Below, in pieces: positions 2,433 to 28,897 of a stretch of DNA of 64,000 bases (position 1 is the first letter of the stretch; each line of letters opens with the position of its first letter). The stretch is from NCBI GenBank assembly GCA_022360175.1, contig JAKSDI010000100.1, positions 153,037-217,036 of the forward strand, in the 5' to 3' direction. Source of the stretch: Chitinophagales bacterium (GTDB taxonomy: Bacteria; Bacteroidota; Bacteroidia; Chitinophagales; Saprospiraceae). The notes beneath the pieces are model-generated. The model did not search any database and was not told the origin of the DNA. It worked only from the letters and a program-made list of their open reading frames with translations. The position numbers and the translations under genes were made by a program.

Positions 2433-2798
2433 ATGGTTTTAAAACAGAGCGAACCCCAGCAATTAGTAGAACAAGCGTTACAGGTATTTAAGTTCCGTAT
2501 AGCAAAAGAAAAACTATTCTATCATAGGATTAGTATAGATACTACGAGTTTAATGCTTGAACTTGAGTTATCAACTCAGAAGTTAAGAACAATTTTACAG
2601 CAATTGGATGCTGTTGATTACATAGATGAATGTTATAAGGGAAATGAACATATTATTTTTTTTGGAAAATCAATCCATAAAAAAATACTACTTATAGGTA
2701 TACCGATACCCCATGATCCCACCCACCTATACATCTTTCTGGATGTTATATCGACCCTAGAAACCATTCCTAACTATCTTAAAATGCAGCTATGGTGA
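2433..2798 (+). CDS. Putative MqsR-like toxin of a toxin-antitoxin pair
   Basis: A 121-aa protein. Its pattern resembles the MqsR-like (RelE-fold) toxins: FKFRIAKEKL near the start, a D-T-x-x-L-M-L-E-L-E-L segment, a helix with ILQQLDAVDY, then a FFGKSIHKK strand and an aliphatic IGIPIP strand. The toxin-first order with the antitoxin directly downstream is that of MqsRA operons, and the two frames overlap by 7 bases (2792-2798), which suggests coupled translation. MqsR toxins are ribosome-independent mRNA endonucleases; activity here is an inference. The C-terminal tail is less like the family, so a different toxin type paired with Panacea is possible. Confidence 0.55.
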   Translation: MVLKQSEPQQLVEQALQVFKFRIAKEKLFYHRISIDTTSLMLELELSTQKLRTILQQLDAVDYIDECYKGNEHIIFFGKSIHKKILLIGIPIPHDPTHLYIFLDVISTLETIPNYLKMQLW

Positions 2799-3805
2799 TC
2801 GCAATCAACAAAAACAATCAACCATTAACAAAGCCTGATATACGAGTATTTCGAAAAGAGAAGTATAATATACTCTATCATTATTATCAGGATTCCAAAA
2901 CAGGTAAAGAATTTGAGAGTGATGAACTAATTGCATTTAATCTAGTGCAAGTTCATAATCAATACAGGGAAAAGCATAATCTACCGTTCCCCGGAGAAAT
3001 AAAGGAAATTAGAGAACAATATGGAGTGTCAGCCGCTAGAATGGCTGAAATACTTGGCTTTGGGATTAACCAGTACCGAAACTATGAAAAGGGTGAAATT
3101 CCGAGTATTTCTAATGGGCGACTTATTCAAATGATTCGAAGCCCGAAAGAATTTAAGCGAGTCTTAGAACTTAGCGAAACACTAGGTCCGAAGGAATATA
3201 CTAAGTTACTTAAGAGGACAAATGAGCTTATCCAAAAGAAAAAAGAAAGTAAATGGTATAATATTAGGCTAGCTGATTATTTGATTGGAAGAGATCGTCC
3301 AAATGAAGAGACGGGGTTTGTGAGACCAAACCTTGAGAAGTTATGTAACATGTTGTCTTTTTTTGCAGTTGAAGCAGGGGAGCCACATAAAACAAAAATG
3401 AACAAACTACTCTTCTATTCGGACTTTCTAAACTATAAAACGACATGTTATTCCATTAGTGGATCAAAGTATCGTGCTATACAATATGGGCCTGTACCAC
3501 AAAATTTTGGCAGCCTGTATGAATTTGCAGATCGGGAAGGTTATATACAAATAGAATACAATGAATGTAATGATGGTGTCATTCAGGAAAGGCATTTACC
3601 TGGGGCGACACATACATTTAATGATTCCCTTTTCAGTGAAGTAGAACTTGAGGCAATGAAAAGTGTTGCAAGAAAATTTGGCAAAATGACAACTAGAAAA
3701 ATTGTAGAAAAAAGTCATGAGGAAGATGCGTGGAAGGAAAATGTGAAGGGATATCAGATTATTCGCTATAGTAAAGCATTCACATTAAAAACGATTAGCT
3801 TATAA
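2792..3805 (+). CDS. Panacea (SocA/DUF4065) antitoxin with N-terminal MqsA-like HTH
   Basis: A 337-aa protein in two parts. Residues about 1-120 resemble the MqsA-type antitoxin core without zinc-binding cysteines: YHYYQDSKTGKEF, QYREKHNLPFPGEIKEIRE and an HTH with SAARMAEILGFGINQYRNYEKG. Residues about 180-330 are a Panacea/SocA domain, with KMNKLLFYSDFLNY, RAIQYGPVPQNF and a C-terminal SHEEDAWKE motif. Panacea-domain antitoxins neutralise many unrelated toxins by direct binding, and the HTH part would give operator autoregulation. It overlaps the toxin gene by 7 bases. The family call is strong; the match to this particular toxin comes from gene order. Confidence 0.82.
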   Translation: MVIAINKNNQPLTKPDIRVFRKEKYNILYHYYQDSKTGKEFESDELIAFNLVQVHNQYREKHNLPFPGEIKEIREQYGVSAARMAEILGFGINQYRNYEKGEIPSISNGRLIQMIRSPKEFKRVLELSETLGPKEYTKLLKRTNELIQKKKESKWYNIRLADYLIGRDRPNEETGFVRPNLEKLCNMLSFFAVEAGEPHKTKMNKLLFYSDFLNYKTTCYSISGSKYRAIQYGPVPQNFGSLYEFADREGYIQIEYNECNDGVIQERHLPGATHTFNDSLFSEVELEAMKSVARKFGKMTTRKIVEKSHEEDAWKENVKGYQIIRYSKAFTLKTISL

Positions 3806-4041: not shown

Positions 4042-4749
4042 ATGGACAATTTAAAAAACCGCGAAGGGTATGTAGATGTCGAAGCCCTTGCAAAAGCAGG
4101 CAAACCTATTCCTAAAGGCAGAAAATATCTGCTGCGTATTGATGGTAAAAAATACAAATGGGATAAGGAATGTATTACAGGTCGAGAAATTTTGCTATTG
4201 GCGGGGAAAACTCCCGTCGAACGTTTTCAGGTGAACCAACGATTCCGCTTTGGTCGGGTCGAGGAAGTGCAGCTTGATGAGAAAGTTGATTTAGCAACAT
4301 GTGGCGTTGAACGCTTCATGACACTACCATTAGATCAAACAGAAGGACGCCCTCAGCAGAGGGCGTTCGCGCTTCCGGAGGAAGATGAAGCGTTTTTGAA
4401 TGCAAGTAACTTTAAATGGGAAGCCTTAAGAGAGGGAAATCAGCAATGGTTGATTATTAGAGAATTTCCTATACCAGAAGGATATAGTCATATGCATGCT
4501 GATGTCGCTATCATGATTACGCCTGGCTACCCAACGAGTAAATTGGATATGGTGTATTTTCATCCTGAGCTGCGGCGATCAGATGGTAAGGGTATAAAGG
4601 CATTGAGGAATCAATCAATTGAAGGAAAAACCTATCAGAGGTGGTCACGGCATTATACGAATACAAATCCATGGCGACCAGGCATTGATGATATTTCAAC
4701 CCATTTAAGTCTTGTGAAGCACTGGCTTACAAGAGAATTTATAAAATAA
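4042..4749 (+). CDS. Multiubiquitin-type UBL fused to an E2-like domain (Prok-E2 family E)
   Basis: A 235-aa fusion. Residues about 28-100 form one multiubiquitin-type beta-grasp domain: YLLRIDGKKYKW, ITGREILLLAGK, then VDLATCGVERF, which is close to the Multi_ubiq pattern. After a short linker (TEGRPQQRAF), residues about 110-235 match prokaryotic E2 family E: EFPIPEGYSHMHADVAI, ITPGYPTSKLDMVYFHP, TYQRWSRH and NPWRPGIDDISTHL. The only cysteines are in the UBL part, at about residues 44 and 89; the E2-like part has none, so classical E2 thioester chemistry is not possible there. The gene is 7 bases upstream of the JAB-E1 gene. UBL maturation would need cleavage in the linker. No Shine-Dalgarno is evident. 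Confidence 0.85.
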   Translation: MDNLKNREGYVDVEALAKAGKPIPKGRKYLLRIDGKKYKWDKECITGREILLLAGKTPVERFQVNQRFRFGRVEEVQLDEKVDLATCGVERFMTLPLDQTEGRPQQRAFALPEEDEAFLNASNFKWEALREGNQQWLIIREFPIPEGYSHMHADVAIMITPGYPTSKLDMVYFHPELRRSDGKGIKALRNQSIEGKTYQRWSRHYTNTNPWRPGIDDISTHLSLVKHWLTREFIK

Positions 4750-4756
4750 GCATGCT

Positions 4757-6163
4757 ATGAAAACTTTTTTTTCCTTAAGTGGATCACAGCATGAAACACT
4801 TAAGAATCACTTGTTTCCAGGAGATGGAAAAGAAGCCGTTGCTATTGCACTTTGCGGGAGGAGTAAATTTGCAGACAATCAAGGACTTGTTGTACATGCT
4901 ATATTTCCTATTCCTTATGAAGATTGCTATCATCGAACCCCTGATCAGGTAAAATGGTCAACGACACTTATTAAACCATTTTTAGAGCAGGCAATGAATA
5001 AAAATATGTCAATTGCCAAGATTCATTGTCATCCTGGAGGGGGACGTTTCTTTTCAGACATTGATACCATTTCAGATAAAGAGCTTTTTGACTCAATCTA
5101 TGGATGGATTGGAGATGATGGTCCTCATGCCAGCCTTATTATGCTGCCAGATAAAACGTTGTTTGGACGGTTTATCACCCCTGATATGACATTCACCGAA
5201 ATAGATCGCATCAAAGTCAGTGGAGATGATATTCATATTTGGGATGCACTTTCGAAAAATGAAGAATTTGGAGAATTTGATATTCGAAATATTCAAGCTT
5301 TCGGTGAAGGAACGGTACGCTTATTTAAAAAACTGCGCATTGGTATTATTGGCTGCTCTGGAACGGGAAGCCCTGTAGCTGAATGCCTTACACGGTTGGG
5401 AGTCGGTGAACTCTTTTTAGTTGACCCTGATAGGATTGAAGCGAAAAACCTCAATCGCATTTTGACAACTAAAATACACGATGTTGGCCAGTTAAAGACA
5501 GATGTCCTCAAGCGAGAAATGGAGCAATATGGGAGTGGTACTCGCATTCAGAGTTTCCCTGTTAACCTTTACGATAATATCGATGTCATACGATTACTTT
5601 CAACTTGCGATATTCTCTTTGGGTGTATGGACTCTGTAGACGGGAGACATTTAGTCAATCTGATCGCTACATTTTATCTGATTCCTTATATTGATATTGG
5701 GGTCAAGCTCATGGCAAACGGGAAAGGTGGGATCGATAAAATCTGTTACAGTGTTCATTATCTAAAGCCTGGACAATCTCTCATGGCAAGAAGAGTCTAT
5801 TCTGTTGAAATGTTAACAGCAGCTAGTCTGCAACGGAAAAATCCTGAAGAGTTTGAGGGACGGCTCAACGATGGATATATTCACAATGCTCAGGTAGAAA
5901 GCCCTGCTGTTATTCATGTCAATATGAGTGCTGCAATGAAAGCGGTATCTGAGCTTAAGGCGCGGCTCATTCATTACCGATATGATGAGAATAAGGACTT
6001 TAATATTCAACAATGGGAAGAAGTCGATAATTATTATCTTCATAAAGAAGATGTTACCTCCAACAAATTATTCACCAAATATATTGGACGAGGCGATCTT
6101 GAGCCGTTACTTTCCCTATCTGAATTGAGTCAATTAGTAGCCCATGGTAAAGAGGATTTTTAA
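4757..6163 (+). CDS. JAB deubiquitinase-like domain fused to a ThiF/E1-type activating enzyme
   Basis: A 468-aa fusion. The N-terminal part (about 1-150) is a JAB/MPN domain with HCHPGGGRFFSDID (HxHP...SxxD) near residue 90, so the metal site looks intact. Residues about 190-420 are a ThiF-type Rossmann domain: GIIGCSGTGSP nucleotide loop, FLVDPDRIEAKNLNR, and MDSVDGR. Where many ThiF/E1 proteins have PGxxCxxC, this one reads LKPGQSLMARR, with no cysteines. It would adenylate the UBL C terminus, while the JAB part could cleave UBL conjugates. It sits between the UBL-E2 gene (7-base gap) and the DUF6527 gene (20-base overlap), so the three are one operon. Confidence 0.87.
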   Translation: MKTFFSLSGSQHETLKNHLFPGDGKEAVAIALCGRSKFADNQGLVVHAIFPIPYEDCYHRTPDQVKWSTTLIKPFLEQAMNKNMSIAKIHCHPGGGRFFSDIDTISDKELFDSIYGWIGDDGPHASLIMLPDKTLFGRFITPDMTFTEIDRIKVSGDDIHIWDALSKNEEFGEFDIRNIQAFGEGTVRLFKKLRIGIIGCSGTGSPVAECLTRLGVGELFLVDPDRIEAKNLNRILTTKIHDVGQLKTDVLKREMEQYGSGTRIQSFPVNLYDNIDVIRLLSTCDILFGCMDSVDGRHLVNLIATFYLIPYIDIGVKLMANGKGGIDKICYSVHYLKPGQSLMARRVYSVEMLTAASLQRKNPEEFEGRLNDGYIHNAQVESPAVIHVNMSAAMKAVSELKARLIHYRYDENKDFNIQQWEEVDNYYLHKEDVTSNKLFTKYIGRGDLEPLLSLSELSQLVAHGKEDF

Positions 6164-6491
6164 ACGGCTGACAGGTTGGTTCTTACAGATATTACGGCTC
6201 AAAAGATCGACCTATCGACTTATCAATATTGATGATATTCCCCCTACTATATTGTCAGGTCATCATATATTTTATGTTGGGATTGATGGATATAAATGGT
6301 GCATCTATTTTAGATGCCCATGTGGCTGCGGGGAAACTATTATTCTGAATACATTGACAGAATCAAAGCCTCATTGGCGAATACAGTTTCATTCGAAGAG
6401 AAAGTTTTCTATTTACCCTTCCATTCATCGACAGATAGGGTGTAAATCTCATTTTTTTATTCGTGATAATGAAGTCGTTTTTGTTTTGTGA
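6144..6491 (+). CDS. DUF6527-family protein of the ubiquitin-like operon
   Basis: A 115-aa protein. Visible landmarks are an HIFYVGIDG strand, a CPCGCGE cysteine cluster at about residues 59-65, a WRIQFH strand, PSI near 93 and CKSHFFIRDNEVVFV near the C terminus. This set of Cys, Ser and His residues is the signature of DUF6527 as I know it; such proteins recur beside bacterial UBL/E2/E1 genes. Likely roles are zinc-dependent recognition or proteolytic maturation of the UBL; which one applies cannot be told here. Its start overlaps the end of the JAB-E1 gene by 20 bases, which argues for coupled synthesis. Basic residues dominate the first 20 positions. Confidence 0.75.
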   Translation: MVKRIFKRLTGWFLQILRLKRSTYRLINIDDIPPTILSGHHIFYVGIDGYKWCIYFRCPCGCGETIILNTLTESKPHWRIQFHSKRKFSIYPSIHRQIGCKSHFFIRDNEVVFVL

Positions 6492-6537: not shown

Positions 6538-6762
6538 ATGAAAAAGACCACACAGCATGTGGTGCGTCATCCGGAAGGATGGGCGCTCAAACGAGGCGGT
6601 AGCAGTAGAGCTACCAAAGTATTTCCAACACAGGGAGCTGCTATTGAGTATGGTCGTGATGTATCACGCAATCAAGGTGCGGAATTTTTTATTCATGGAC
6701 GTAATGGCCAAATACGGGAACGTAACAGCTATGGAAACGATCCCTACCCACCTCGTGGTTGA
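6538..6762 (+). CDS. DUF2188-family small protein
   Basis: A 74-aa protein with the DUF2188 pattern: HVVRHPEGWALKRGGSSRATKVFPTQGAAIEYGRDVSRNQGAEFFIHGRNGQI in broken form, that is, a pair of strands, a helix and a final strand with GRNGQIR. The family is small, common in phages and accessory DNA, and of unknown function, possibly nucleic-acid binding. It follows the DUF6527 gene by 46 bases in the same direction and may be part of the same transcript. A T-run and AT-rich stretch precede its ATG, with no Shine-Dalgarno, as is usual in Bacteroidota. Confidence 0.72.
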   Translation: MKKTTQHVVRHPEGWALKRGGSSRATKVFPTQGAAIEYGRDVSRNQGAEFFIHGRNGQIRERNSYGNDPYPPRG

Positions 6763-6830: not shown

Positions 6831-7379
6831 ATGACAACATTAAACTTAGCATGCAATTGGCAGCAAACACAGGCACTTCAAGCCTTTATTTATCAATATC
6901 ACTTGCAACCAGGTGATGCCATTATAGTGAAAGAACATGATAAAGGCTTTGTTCGGAGCCTGCTGGATCATTATGTCATTTATTTGGGGGATACGCTTTT
7001 TATGGCAAATTACCGGGATGGTGTAAAGATTCTGGATTGCCCAACCATTTTTCGCTTTCTGCCTTCGATGAAGGTAGATCGGATTCGTCGCTTTACTGGC
7101 AGTGACCAGGAGCGATGGACAGCTATACAGCGTGCATTCGCTCAACGGGACCGAGAAAGCTATCATTTGATTGCAGATAATTGTGAGCATTTTGCGAATG
7201 AAGTGCAATATGGCATTGCTTATAGCGATCAGGCATTAACCGGAGGTACCGCTGCAACCTTTATTGGTATTGGAATGATGAGCAGCCGTAACAGCTTGGT
7301 TCAATTAATTGGAGGATTACTCACTATCGCTGGAGGAGCAGTGACGGTAGCAGAGGTTATGCGGCGGATGGAGGCATGA
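6831..7379 (+). CDS. LRAT-like (NlpC/P60 superfamily) protein with C-terminal membrane segment
   Basis: A 182-aa protein. Residues about 20-135 are an LRAT-type permuted papain-like domain: QPGDAIIV near 25, the active-site His in DHYVIYLGD near 47, and NCEHFANEVQYG with the nucleophilic Cys near 117. Residues about 140-180 are hydrophobic (GGTAATFIGIGMM ... LIGGLLTIAGGAVTV), giving one or two membrane helices. LRAT-like enzymes move acyl groups between lipids or cleave amide bonds; the bacterial substrate is unknown. It lies 68 bases after the DUF2188 gene and in the same direction, so it may be an effector of the upstream ubiquitin-like operon, but it could also be independent cargo. Confidence 0.75.
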   Translation: MTTLNLACNWQQTQALQAFIYQYHLQPGDAIIVKEHDKGFVRSLLDHYVIYLGDTLFMANYRDGVKILDCPTIFRFLPSMKVDRIRRFTGSDQERWTAIQRAFAQRDRESYHLIADNCEHFANEVQYGIAYSDQALTGGTAATFIGIGMMSSRNSLVQLIGGLLTIAGGAVTVAEVMRRMEA

Positions 7380-7427: not shown

Positions 7428-7709
7428 GGTACGGGCCTACAGGAACGTGAGGCGAATGCTTTTCCCGCAGCGTTATTAATGCCGGAAACATTTCTGCGCG
7501 AGGAAATTGATTCTTTGCTGCATCAGGATAGTAAAAAGGGATATTTTGAACTTAGTGGCGGAGTATTGGAGGAATTGAGTCAGAAAAATGGAAGGGATGA
7601 GAAGGATGATTTTGATTCGCTGATTCGGCAGTTAGCCGATATTTTTCAGGTCAGTTCTATGGCGATGACTTATCGCGTGGGGAATCTTAACCTTTTTGAT
7701 GCATTGTAG
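7428..7709 (+). pseudogene. C-terminal remnant of an ImmA/IrrE (peptidase M78) protein
   Basis: The frame opens after a TAA at 7425-7427 and reads GTGLQEREANAFPAALLMPE, then FLREEID and a C-terminal RQLADIFQVSSMAMTYRVGNLNL. That is the end of an ImmA/IrrE metallopeptidase: the EREANAFAAxLLMPE helix with the third zinc ligand, followed by the segment with VSxxAMxxRLxxLGL. The HExxH half is missing and no upstream frame supplies it within 50 bases of the preceding gene. A short ORF starting at the internal ATG 7479 (76 aa) could still be made but would lack the active site. Best read as debris from an older toxin-antitoxin or phage-regulator gene. Confidence 0.7.
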
Positions 7710-17567: not shown

Positions 17568-20267
17568 ATGCTACGGATAACGCAAAGCAAGAATGCGGCG
17601 GGGGCTGCGAAATATTTTGATGAAGGGTTGCAGCGGGCCGATTACTTTGCCAAAGAGGAGCAGACCGTTGGCGCGTGGGGCGGGAAGGCGGCGGCGAGGC
17701 TGGGGCTTTCCGGCAAGGTACAAAAGGAGGATTTTGTCGCCCTTTGCCATAATAAGGCACCGGATGGGGGGCGATTAAATCCTCGCCATAGTGTGGACCG
17801 GAAAGTGGGGTATGATTTTACATTTTCCGTTCCCAAGTCGGTGAGTGTGGTTTATGCGGTGACCGGGGATGCGCGCATTTTGCAGGCGTTTGAACAATCG
17901 GTCGAACGCACCATGAAAGAGATTGAAAGGCGGATATGCACGCAGACGGGGCAGGGAAAGGACAAGCATTATCAACCAACGGGTGAAATGATGTGGGCTT
18001 CCTTTACCCACCGGACCAGCCGGCCCGTTGACGGGGTGCCGGATCCGCATTTGCACCGCCATTGTTTTGCAATAAATTCAACCTGGAATGAAAAGGCACA
18101 GCGATTTCAGGCGGGGGAGTTTGGACCGATCAAGCAGCAGGCACCCTATTATGAAGCGGCCTTTGAATCCCGCATGGCGGCGGCGATGGTGCAGCTTGGA
18201 TATTCCGTGCAGCGGCGAGGCCTTAGTTGGGAAGTGGCGAATATTGCGGATCAGACCTTGCAGAAATTTTCCCGTCGGACGGTGGCGATTGAAGCACGTG
18301 CCCGGCGGGAGCAACAGGAACATGGCGTGATTTCTGCCCGGCAGAAAGATCAGCTTGGAGCCTTAACCCGCGCCCAAAAACAGGCGGGACAGCCCTGGAG
18401 TCGTTTATGTGATCGCTGGCGTCGTTGGTTAACGGATGAGGAGCGCGAAGCACTGGCACAATCATCTGCCAGTGACAAAGCGGCTGAAAAGAAGAAGGGT
18501 GTGAGCGCAGAAGAGGCGGTGGCGCGCGCCGGCCGGCATTTATTTGAAAGAAAAACGGTGGTAAAGGAGTATCAGCTCAAGGCGGAAGCATTGCGGCGAG
18601 GTTATGGGGAGATTCTGCCGCGCGAGCTGGAGCCTGCGCTGCAACAGGGCGAATATTACCGGCGAGAGATCAAAAATCAATGTTACATTACGACCCGCGA
18701 AGCTGTGGCGGAGGAATATCGCCTGTTGCGGTATGTGCGCGAAGGGATGGGCAAACAGGAACCTTTAAACCCGCAATATCAGCCGCAGGCAATTTATTTA
18801 AATGCGGGGCAGAAAGCGGCGATAGAACATGCGCTGACAGACCGGAATCAGGTAACCATTATTGCTGGCGGTGCCGGCACCGGGAAAACCACCCTGATGA
18901 AGGAAGTCCGTGACGGGATAGAGGCAGGGGGGAAAAAACTAATGGGATTTGCCCCGTCGGCCGCTGCGTCCAGAGGGGTGCTTCGCTCAGAAGGGTTTAG
19001 CGGGGCGGATACACTTGCTCAGCTATTACATAACCCCAAAATGCAGGAGCAATGTAAGGGGAATGTGATTTGGGTTGATGAGGCAGGATTAGTGGGAAAT
19101 AAGGATATGAATGCCCTTTTTGACATTGCCCGGCAACAAAATGCCCGGCTGTTACTGACCGGAGATATTCGCCAGCATAGTGCGGTGGCTGCCGGTGATG
19201 CGTTGCGTATTCTGGAACAGGAAGCGGGGATCCCCGTAGCACGGGTGCATAAAATTCAGCGCCAGAAAAACAGCCAGCTTTATAAACAGGCGGTACGGCT
19301 GGCGGCGCAGGGCAAAGGCGATGCCGCCCTGTTTCAACTGGACCGAATGGGAGCAGTGATTGAGGAGGCGGATGGGAAAAAGCGGCGGGACCGGCTAGTG
19401 GAGGATTATGTGCAGCACCGGTCAAAAGGGAAAAGGCTGTTGATTATTGCCCCTACCCATAAAGAGGGGCGAGAGGTGACCGATTGCCTGCGCCAGCGGC
19501 TGAAGCAGGAAGAACAGCTTGGCAAGGCGGGGCAGGCCTATGATGTCTTAAAGAACCTGAATTGGACCGGGGAGCATAAAAGCGATGCGTTTCATTATCA
19601 ACAAACAGGGCTGGTATTGGAATTTCACCAGAATGCGCAAGGGCACCGTAAGGGAGAGCGTTGGCAAGTGGTGGAAGGGACGGTTCAAAATGGTACCATA
19701 ATGGCCGTGTCGGAAACGGGCCAACCGGAGCGCATTAACCTGCAACAGTCAGAGCGTTTTACGATCTACCGACAGGAAAAACTCGAACTGGCCCAAGGGG
19801 ATGTGATTCGAGTGACGAAGGGAGGCAGGACCAATGAGGGAACCCGAATCAATAATGGGGACATTTTCACTATTCATGGCTTTACCGAAGAGGGGCATTT
19901 GCGTTTGCATACAGGGAAAACGCTGGCAAAATCCTTTGGGCATGTCACTTATGGCTATGTGACCACATCGCACAGTTCACAGGGTAAGACGGTGGACCAT
20001 ATTCTGATTGCGCAGTCAGGTGATTCATTCCCGGCATCGAACCAGCAACAATTTTATGTTTCTATTTCCCGGGGGCGTGAAGCCTGCCGGATTTATACCG
20101 ATGATAAAAAGGCATTGGAACAGGCGGTGAAACAAAATGGGCAGCGAATGACTGCCAGGGAGGTTTCAGAAATTGACCGCCAGCGGCAACAATCTATGAT
20201 GCCGCCGGCAGGGCAAGGGCTGACTAAAGAAAAAGAACAACATCATGGACCAAACCTATCATTATAG
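17568..20267 (+). CDS. MobF-family conjugative relaxase-helicase (TrwC/TraI type)
   Basis: An 899-aa protein. Residues about 1-290 are the TrwC relaxase domain: LRITQSKNAAGAAKYF start, a tyrosine at about residue 26 (RADYFAKEE) in the place of the catalytic Tyr, VGYDFTFSVPKSVSV, and the three-His motif PHLHRHCFAIN near 160-170. From about 400 on it is a RecD-like helicase: Walker A AGGAGTGKTTL near 432, DEAG Walker B, and late motifs TTSHSSQGKTVDHI and FYVSISRGRE. It nicks oriT, stays on the 5' end and unwinds the strand. It is shorter than F TraI, about TrwC size. It is followed with a 23-base overlap by the gene at 20245. Confidence 0.95.
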   Translation: MLRITQSKNAAGAAKYFDEGLQRADYFAKEEQTVGAWGGKAAARLGLSGKVQKEDFVALCHNKAPDGGRLNPRHSVDRKVGYDFTFSVPKSVSVVYAVTGDARILQAFEQSVERTMKEIERRICTQTGQGKDKHYQPTGEMMWASFTHRTSRPVDGVPDPHLHRHCFAINSTWNEKAQRFQAGEFGPIKQQAPYYEAAFESRMAAAMVQLGYSVQRRGLSWEVANIADQTLQKFSRRTVAIEARARREQQEHGVISARQKDQLGALTRAQKQAGQPWSRLCDRWRRWLTDEEREALAQSSASDKAAEKKKGVSAEEAVARAGRHLFERKTVVKEYQLKAEALRRGYGEILPRELEPALQQGEYYRREIKNQCYITTREAVAEEYRLLRYVREGMGKQEPLNPQYQPQAIYLNAGQKAAIEHALTDRNQVTIIAGGAGTGKTTLMKEVRDGIEAGGKKLMGFAPSAAASRGVLRSEGFSGADTLAQLLHNPKMQEQCKGNVIWVDEAGLVGNKDMNALFDIARQQNARLLLTGDIRQHSAVAAGDALRILEQEAGIPVARVHKIQRQKNSQLYKQAVRLAAQGKGDAALFQLDRMGAVIEEADGKKRRDRLVEDYVQHRSKGKRLLIIAPTHKEGREVTDCLRQRLKQEEQLGKAGQAYDVLKNLNWTGEHKSDAFHYQQTGLVLEFHQNAQGHRKGERWQVVEGTVQNGTIMAVSETGQPERINLQQSERFTIYRQEKLELAQGDVIRVTKGGRTNEGTRINNGDIFTIHGFTEEGHLRLHTGKTLAKSFGHVTYGYVTTSHSSQGKTVDHILIAQSGDSFPASNQQQFYVSISRGREACRIYTDDKKALEQAVKQNGQRMTAREVSEIDRQRQQSMMPPAGQGLTKEKEQHHGPNLSL

Positions 20268-28812: not shown

Positions 28813-28823
28813 GATTGTTAAAG

Positions 28824-28897
28824 CGGTCCGGACGGGACTCGAACCCGCGACCCCCTGCGTGACAGGCAGGTATTCTAACCAGCTGAACTACCGGACC
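28824..28897 (-). tRNA. tRNA-Asp (GTC)
   Basis: The 74-nt minus-strand gene folds as a full cloverleaf: acceptor stem GGTCCGG/CCGGACC, discriminator G, a D arm with AGCTGGTTAGA, an anticodon stem CTGCC/GGCAG-type with loop CTGTCAC (anticodon GTC), and a T arm GCGGGTTCGAGTCCCGT. CCA is not encoded, which is usual in Bacteroidota. The intact 3' end faces the mobile element, so it is a plausible attachment site. Confidence 0.95.

Follow-up and report, generated by a model that had tools for sequence, protein, structure and literature searches.

Judging by its genes and domains, the operon at positions 4042 to 6491 of the window (the whole stretch of 64,000 nucleotides that we analysed) is a cassette of the Bub type (bacterial ubiquitination-like, operon type 6e); it is well formed and an unremarkable example of a family already known. 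Its ubiquitin-like protein (UBL) is encoded in one frame with an E2-like domain. We consider it probable that the second protein of this cassette, through its JAMM protease half, cuts the UBL-E2 protein after residue Gly102, and that its E1 half then adenylates the freed UBL for transfer to targets. The features on which this reading is based are the following:

4042..4749, + strand, UBL-E2 fusion gene of the BubA-BubB type, 235 aa (Pfam, PDB matches, AlphaFold2 model)
4123..4347, + strand, ubiquitin-like beta-grasp domain, residues 28-102
4345..4347, + strand, codon of Gly102, where the UBL putatively ends and cleavage is predicted, TEG|RPQQ (column conservation, ends of free UBLs)
4366..4746, + strand, Cys-less E2-fold domain of the BubB type, residues 109-235 (Ser202 codon at 4645-4647)
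4757..6163, + strand, JAB-E1 fusion gene of the BubCD type, 468 aa (ThiF; match to BubCD 9ea4)
5024..5065, + strand, JAMM motif H90-x-H92-x7-S100-x2-D103 (Glu26 codon at 4832-4834)
5267..6160, + strand, E1-like adenylation domain, residues 171-468 (ThiF)
6144..6491, + strand, DUF6527 gene, 115 aa, predicted metal-binding protein, CPCGC ... C-x2-H (PF20137)
6538..6762, + strand, DUF2188 gene (PADLOC PDC-S16), possible accessory (PF09954 E 1.6e-25; PDC-S16 E 6.5e-36)

The three open reading frames of the operon were confirmed on the + strand and, as the preliminary description had it, they overlap or nearly touch, with a gap of 7 nt between the first and second gene and an overlap of 20 nt between the second and third. 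In the 235-aa protein, Pfam profiles recognised Multi_ubiq at residues 31-95 (E 3.8e-14) and Prok-E2_E at residues 111-231 (E 1.7e-39), which agrees with the claim of a multiubiquitin-type UBL joined to an E2-like domain. The same protein matched the PDB entries of BubB (9eav/9eae) and BubA (9ea8). Its AlphaFold2 model (pLDDT 93) matched solved structures of beta-grasp UBLs as well as of E2 folds, the two folds that had been proposed, and the block of residues 101-110 had a pLDDT of 69, below the blocks within both domains.

In the 468-aa protein, ThiF was found at residues 177-316 (E 5.1e-29), and the adenylation signatures of E1 are conserved (GCSGTGS, D223, N231/N233/R234, D292/R297). The Prok-JAB hit at residues 23-118 (E 0.001, 19.4 bits) was under the Pfam cut-off of 25. 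The JAB assignment is nevertheless supported by the full JAMM set and by an alignment of residues 9-458 to Citrobacter BubCD (9ea4, E 1.4e-71), the best match by far. Residues E26, H90, H92, S100 and D103 of this set are kept in 81/81 JAB-E1 proteins (80 loci and the window), and D103 corresponds in the alignment to D104 of Citrobacter BubCD, which is mutated in the D104A structures. The claimed union of E1 and JAB in one protein was thus upheld.

The third gene does encode a DUF6527 protein (PF20137, E 7.8e-21, 74.2 bits, cut-off 23.6). Among 56 sequences, C58, P59, C62, W78, P92, S93, C100 and H103 are invariant, and the spacing of the cysteines and histidine, C58-x3-C62-x37-C100-x2-H103, looks like metal binding. 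The predicted structure (pLDDT 91) starts with an N-terminal helix and continues mostly in beta strands; the protein had no match among PDB profiles and structure comparison gave no convincing fold match. The gene lies directly 3′ of JAB-E1 in 80/80 loci, and its product probably binds metal and may serve as an adaptor or in the choice of targets. All parts of the compact UBL/E2/E1/JAB module described earlier were therefore found in the Pfam scan and the BubCD alignment, with Multi_ubiq, Prok-E2_E, ThiF and DUF6527 significant and Prok-JAB as the one profile below its cut-off.

Among the closest known systems is the Citrobacter Bub operon (BubA, BubB, BubCD; PDB 9EA4, 9EA5, 9EA8, 9EAE, 9EAV). 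It shares with the window a JAB-E1 in one protein, an E2 with QRWSRH and a UBL ending in Gly, and the Citrobacter plasmid copy also has UBL and E2 fused and DUF6527 downstream. However, the window has one UBL domain and the Citrobacter copy three, the junction reads DQTEG|R here and DVNNG|E there, and the upstream gene is of the HTH-Panacea type here but a winged-HTH in Citrobacter. For operon type 6e it was described that JAB is fused to E1 in most cases and that, in a subset, the UBL is fused to a Cys-less E2-like domain (Iyer 2006, PMC1779556, section 14). The likeness to that description (PMC1779556) extends to the UBL repeats (one to three there), which may or may not carry a Cys-less E2/RWD-like domain fused at their C-terminus, to the JAB fused N-terminally to E1 and to the small Cys/His protein. 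The last two candidate metal ligands of DUF6527 are C-x2-H here, whereas H-x2-C is printed for type 6e (PMC1779556); we noticed no further difference from section 14 of that paper. The Bub/type 6e features found in the window are a JAB N-terminal on E1, a Multi_ubiq UBL with the conserved Gly (internal in the fusion), an E2 fold without catalytic Cys and the small Cys-His protein DUF6527 within the operon.

Two other systems were considered and rejected. The Bil operon (BilABCD) likewise encodes UBL, E2, JAB and E1 together; however, BilB carries a catalytic Cys (CEHH motif) and four genes are named in passages of PMC11354881, while the E2 here is without Cys. The Bil assignment was dropped because the E2 domain here lacks Cys altogether and 120 homologues have no conserved one. 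Type II CBASS combines an E1-E2 fusion with a cGAS-like enzyme. Its Cap2/Cap3 proteins share E1-, E2- and JAB-like parts with the window, and the PADLOC E1-E2 models cover the E1 of the window only in part (about residues 183-305 in the best matches). It was rejected since the E2 is joined to the UBL instead of the E1, and no nucleotidyltransferase family was seen among the scanned neighbour proteins.

The preliminary description took such parts to be usually separate genes and their fusion to be unusual, and this is contradicted both by Iyer 2006 (PMC1779556) and by our survey of loci. When one genome per species was scanned with a JAB-E1 alignment, 509 stretches matched, 432 of which were relatives; the best 80 were kept, and these loci are the nearest relatives. 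Profile search of the locus ORFs found JAB-E1 as one ORF in 80/80, a figure that is biased because JAB and E1 patterns had been used to retrieve the loci. All 79 loci with upstream sequence (L057 lacks it and was excluded) have UBL and E2 on that side of JAB-E1, as one fused ORF in 44 and as separate ORFs in 35. In a tree built from 81 JAB-E1 proteins (among them the window and 44 fused loci; quick method, SH-aLRT support only), the fused and split states need 10 changes by parsimony, at least six of which are forced by well-supported branches. Fusion of JAB with E1 and of UBL with E2 is thus ordinary for type 6e, and the idea of an exceptional fusion has to be corrected.

The plasmid survey found the E2 domain in 98 plasmid records, 54 of them predicted to be conjugative, and a fused UBL-E2 ORF in 5/12 regions examined. 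Citrobacter plasmid pOZ181 encodes a 362-aa fusion of three UBLs and an E2, in which the Gly of the last UBL is residue 229. This plasmid protein is closely related to the crystallised Citrobacter protein, although identity of the two is not established. The PDB construct is Citrobacter BubA(155-229) and the PDB BubB is numbered 234-361, so the numbering fits a fused precursor. As the Citrobacter system agrees with the fused form, the fusion is not peculiar to the window, and it may already have been discussed in the literature. A Bub subgroup on rhizobial and Methylocystis plasmids (L096, L097, L100) has a divergent JAB spacing and UBLs that end in ...INPG plus a short tail. All three of these loci carry an extra downstream gene, in which the stretch LMLHTPGGDVDAA resembles, by eye, a ClpP/SDH-type serine protease.

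At the junction of the two domains, Gly102 is invariant in 120/120 fused homologues (the best 120 of 336; another search gave the best 120 of 4279), and Gly occupies the column in 165/165 fused sequences, that is, the 120 homologues and 45 fused locus ORFs, sets that may share proteins and of which the second includes a partial second operon in L013. The residues ahead of it are conserved (LPLDQTEG) and the eight behind far less so. Column entropy is 0 at the Gly, 2.7-3.5 bits at +1 to +8, at most 1.5 bits at -8 to -1, 2.6 bits at -9 and 0.05 bits at -10. The distance from Gly102 to the first Phe of the E2 varies from 5 to 22 residues among the 120 fused homologues. In split operons, the UBL ends exactly at this Gly in 24/35 cases and carries a tail of 1-13 residues in 11/35 (one tail, in L045, was read by eye). 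On plasmids the situation was less uniform. The junction Gly is kept in 5/5 fused ORFs examined, but the residues ahead of it differ in the more distant copies (DVNNG, TTTEG, QTTEG, QTTAG), and only two of six split plasmid UBLs end exactly in TTEG, the other four ending in PG plus 1-3 residues; both observations count against the pattern.

A processing site predicts a kept Gly, a free linker and repeated switching between fused and split forms, all of which are seen, and Gly102 as such a site is a well-supported prediction. Part of the conservation could be due to folding at the end of the UBL. One junction residue would in this way predict how Bub UBLs become active, which turns a curiosity of domain architecture into a simple test on Gly102.

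The E2 domain encoded in the window lacks Cys and is therefore not a canonical E2, which is a correction to the preliminary description, although the E2 fold itself stands. No conserved Cys column exists in this domain among the 120 fused homologues or in the locus set of 81 sequences. It is free of Cys in 72/120 homologues and 39/81 of the locus set (window included); the remaining 48/120 and 42/81 have some Cys at no conserved place, which counts against a chemistry without Cys. In turn, Q199, W201, S202, R203 and H204 are invariant in 120/120 and 81/81, the latter including 35 free-standing E2s. Canonical E2s have their catalytic Cys about 8 residues ahead of W-S-P, and S202 stands 9 residues ahead of W211-R-P213, so that Ser202 may occupy the position of the catalytic Cys, in the W-x-P register with canonical E2s. 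In the E1, the conserved cysteines C200, C284 and C290 lie close to the nucleotide-binding part; beyond residue 290 no Cys column reaches 70 %, the highest being C330 (71/120, and 54/81 with the window included). We infer a serine (oxyester) relay through the E2 as a simple reading, because of the missing conserved E2 Cys, the invariant Q199 and W201-H204, the position of S202 and this pattern of E1 cysteines. A thioester step would still be conceivable, as the E1 keeps Cys 200, 284 and 290 and often 330.

In the mechanism that we propose, the UBL would be made as a fusion with the Cys-less E2-fold domain, which would give UBL and E2 at 1:1 and keep the UBL inactive until cut. The JAMM half of JAB-E1 is predicted to cut after Gly102, the E1 half would then likely adenylate the freed UBL, and the UBL would be transferred to target proteins, perhaps via Ser202. 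The fuller version, a conjugation machine of two polypeptides in which the JAMM half frees the UBL from a UBL-E2 proprotein and transfer runs without catalytic Cys via Ser202-Arg-His204, is tentative, and we give it somewhat less than an even chance. If it is true, the fusion is a reversible and repeatedly switched state equivalent to separate genes, it fixes the stoichiometry of UBL and E2, and the tag is off until JAB-E1 is made. The fused and split pairs in the tree would then be natural controls for asking whether the primary task of a Bub JAB is to release the UBL by proteolysis.

The protein could alternatively stay uncut, with the UBL as a docking or regulatory module in cis (RWD-like) that is not itself conjugated. 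Whole clades of the tree are fused, and the Cys-less E2-like domain was considered a likely inactive E2 fold, probably UBL-binding (Iyer 2006, PMC1779556). However, an invariant Gly followed by a variable linker, free-standing UBLs that end at that Gly and the repeated fused/split changes on the tree all argue against it. E1 enzymes require a UBL with a free carboxylate, and we regard the uncut protein as quite unlikely. Cleavage at Gly102 by another enzyme, DUF6527 or a host protease, with JAB left to remove conjugates only, is also unlikely. It would be in line with DUF6527 adjoining in 80/80 loci, with its invariant C58/C62/S93/C100/H103 and with its lack of a known fold match. Yet those Cys and His residues resemble metal binding, and UBL processing is what one expects of a JAMM protease, BilC (a JAMM protease) processing BilA according to passages of a review (PMC11354881). 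A sulfur-carrier system (ThiS/MoaD-like) instead of protein tagging appears highly improbable: the E1 is similar to ThiF/MoeB/MccB, but an E2-fold domain and a JAMM protease are present, BubCD is the best match by far and no thiamine or molybdenum cofactor family was seen among the neighbour proteins scanned. Cleavage after Gly102 by the JAMM half thus remains the preferred reading.

The operon was said to lie on a transferable element, and the flanking sequence bears this out. Two features within the window belong here:

17568..20267, + strand, TrwC-family relaxase (PF08751 E 3.2e-61)
28823..28897, - strand, tRNA-Asp, right end of the element (tRNA search and repeat)

The 45 bp of the tRNA-Asp 3′ end (28823-28867) recur exactly as a direct repeat at about 143,940 of the contig, about 9.1 kb left of the window, and a tyrosine integrase lies beside this left copy (L084:6083-7291). 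The integrated element between the repeats is about 38 kb long (window -9096 to 28867) and carries ArdC, RadC, a TraG/VirD4-like ATPase, the TrwC relaxase, ParA and an RPA replication initiator. As no mating-pair ATPase was seen among the subset of element ORFs scanned, a mobilizable element is judged equally probable as a conjugative one. None of the 36 genomes sampled from the same family had Prok-E2_E, which occurred in 2/23 other genomes of the order and in 9/395 genomes of the phylum sample (own genome included). This patchy spread fits mobility.

Regarding the neighbouring genes, the DUF2188 gene starts 46 nt behind the DUF6527 gene. Its homologues occur in 5/80 related loci, adjoining the operon in three (L008:4908-5192, L010:4875-5192, L066:7676-7945), and a fused PF07411 domain, which we take to be the YegP family, is found in 6 of 120 UBL-E2 proteins (the best 120 of 336). 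Based on these cases, a small partner of the DUF2188 type may be part of some Bub systems. Immediately 5′ of the operon and in the same orientation, a gene for 121 aa overlaps an HTH and SocA/Panacea antitoxin-like gene (2433-3805) in a toxin-antitoxin-like arrangement. Downstream of the DUF2188 gene we noticed an LRAT-domain protein (6831-7379; NCEHF motif, hydrophobic C-terminal part) and a remnant-like short frame (about 7431-7709) similar to part of the M78 (ImmA/IrrE-type) peptidases of other Bub operons.

The DNA-damage regulators CapW, CapH+CapP and CapK+CapS stand beside many, not all, Bub operons, 219/544 having CapW or CapH+CapP according to passages of PMC13373217. The window operon has the HTH-Panacea gene upstream and only the M78-peptidase-like fragment (about 7431-7697) downstream. 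Of the roles in defence or competition that the preliminary description suggested, defence is plausible for Bub, for which PMC13373217 states that anti-phage protection is not demonstrated. The biological role probably lies in a function of the mobile element that is linked to stress or phage. In 39/80 loci the upstream gene belongs to one cluster and is divergent in 38 of them; both members scanned have an M78 peptidase domain and one also an HTH. Another 80-locus count concerns a divergent upstream sigma-70-like gene of one cluster, seen in 28 loci (L002:4369-5106, L021:4284-5024, L046:4439-5233 and 25 more). Five members were scanned, of which two (L021, L046) have Sigma70 region 2 or 4 above the Pfam cut-off, two are sub-threshold and one (L043) had no match. 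This could be a regulatory cassette besides CapW, CapHP and CapKS. The same small protein adjoins the sigma-70-like gene in 22 loci, and a gene of the M78-peptidase cluster is also present in 17.
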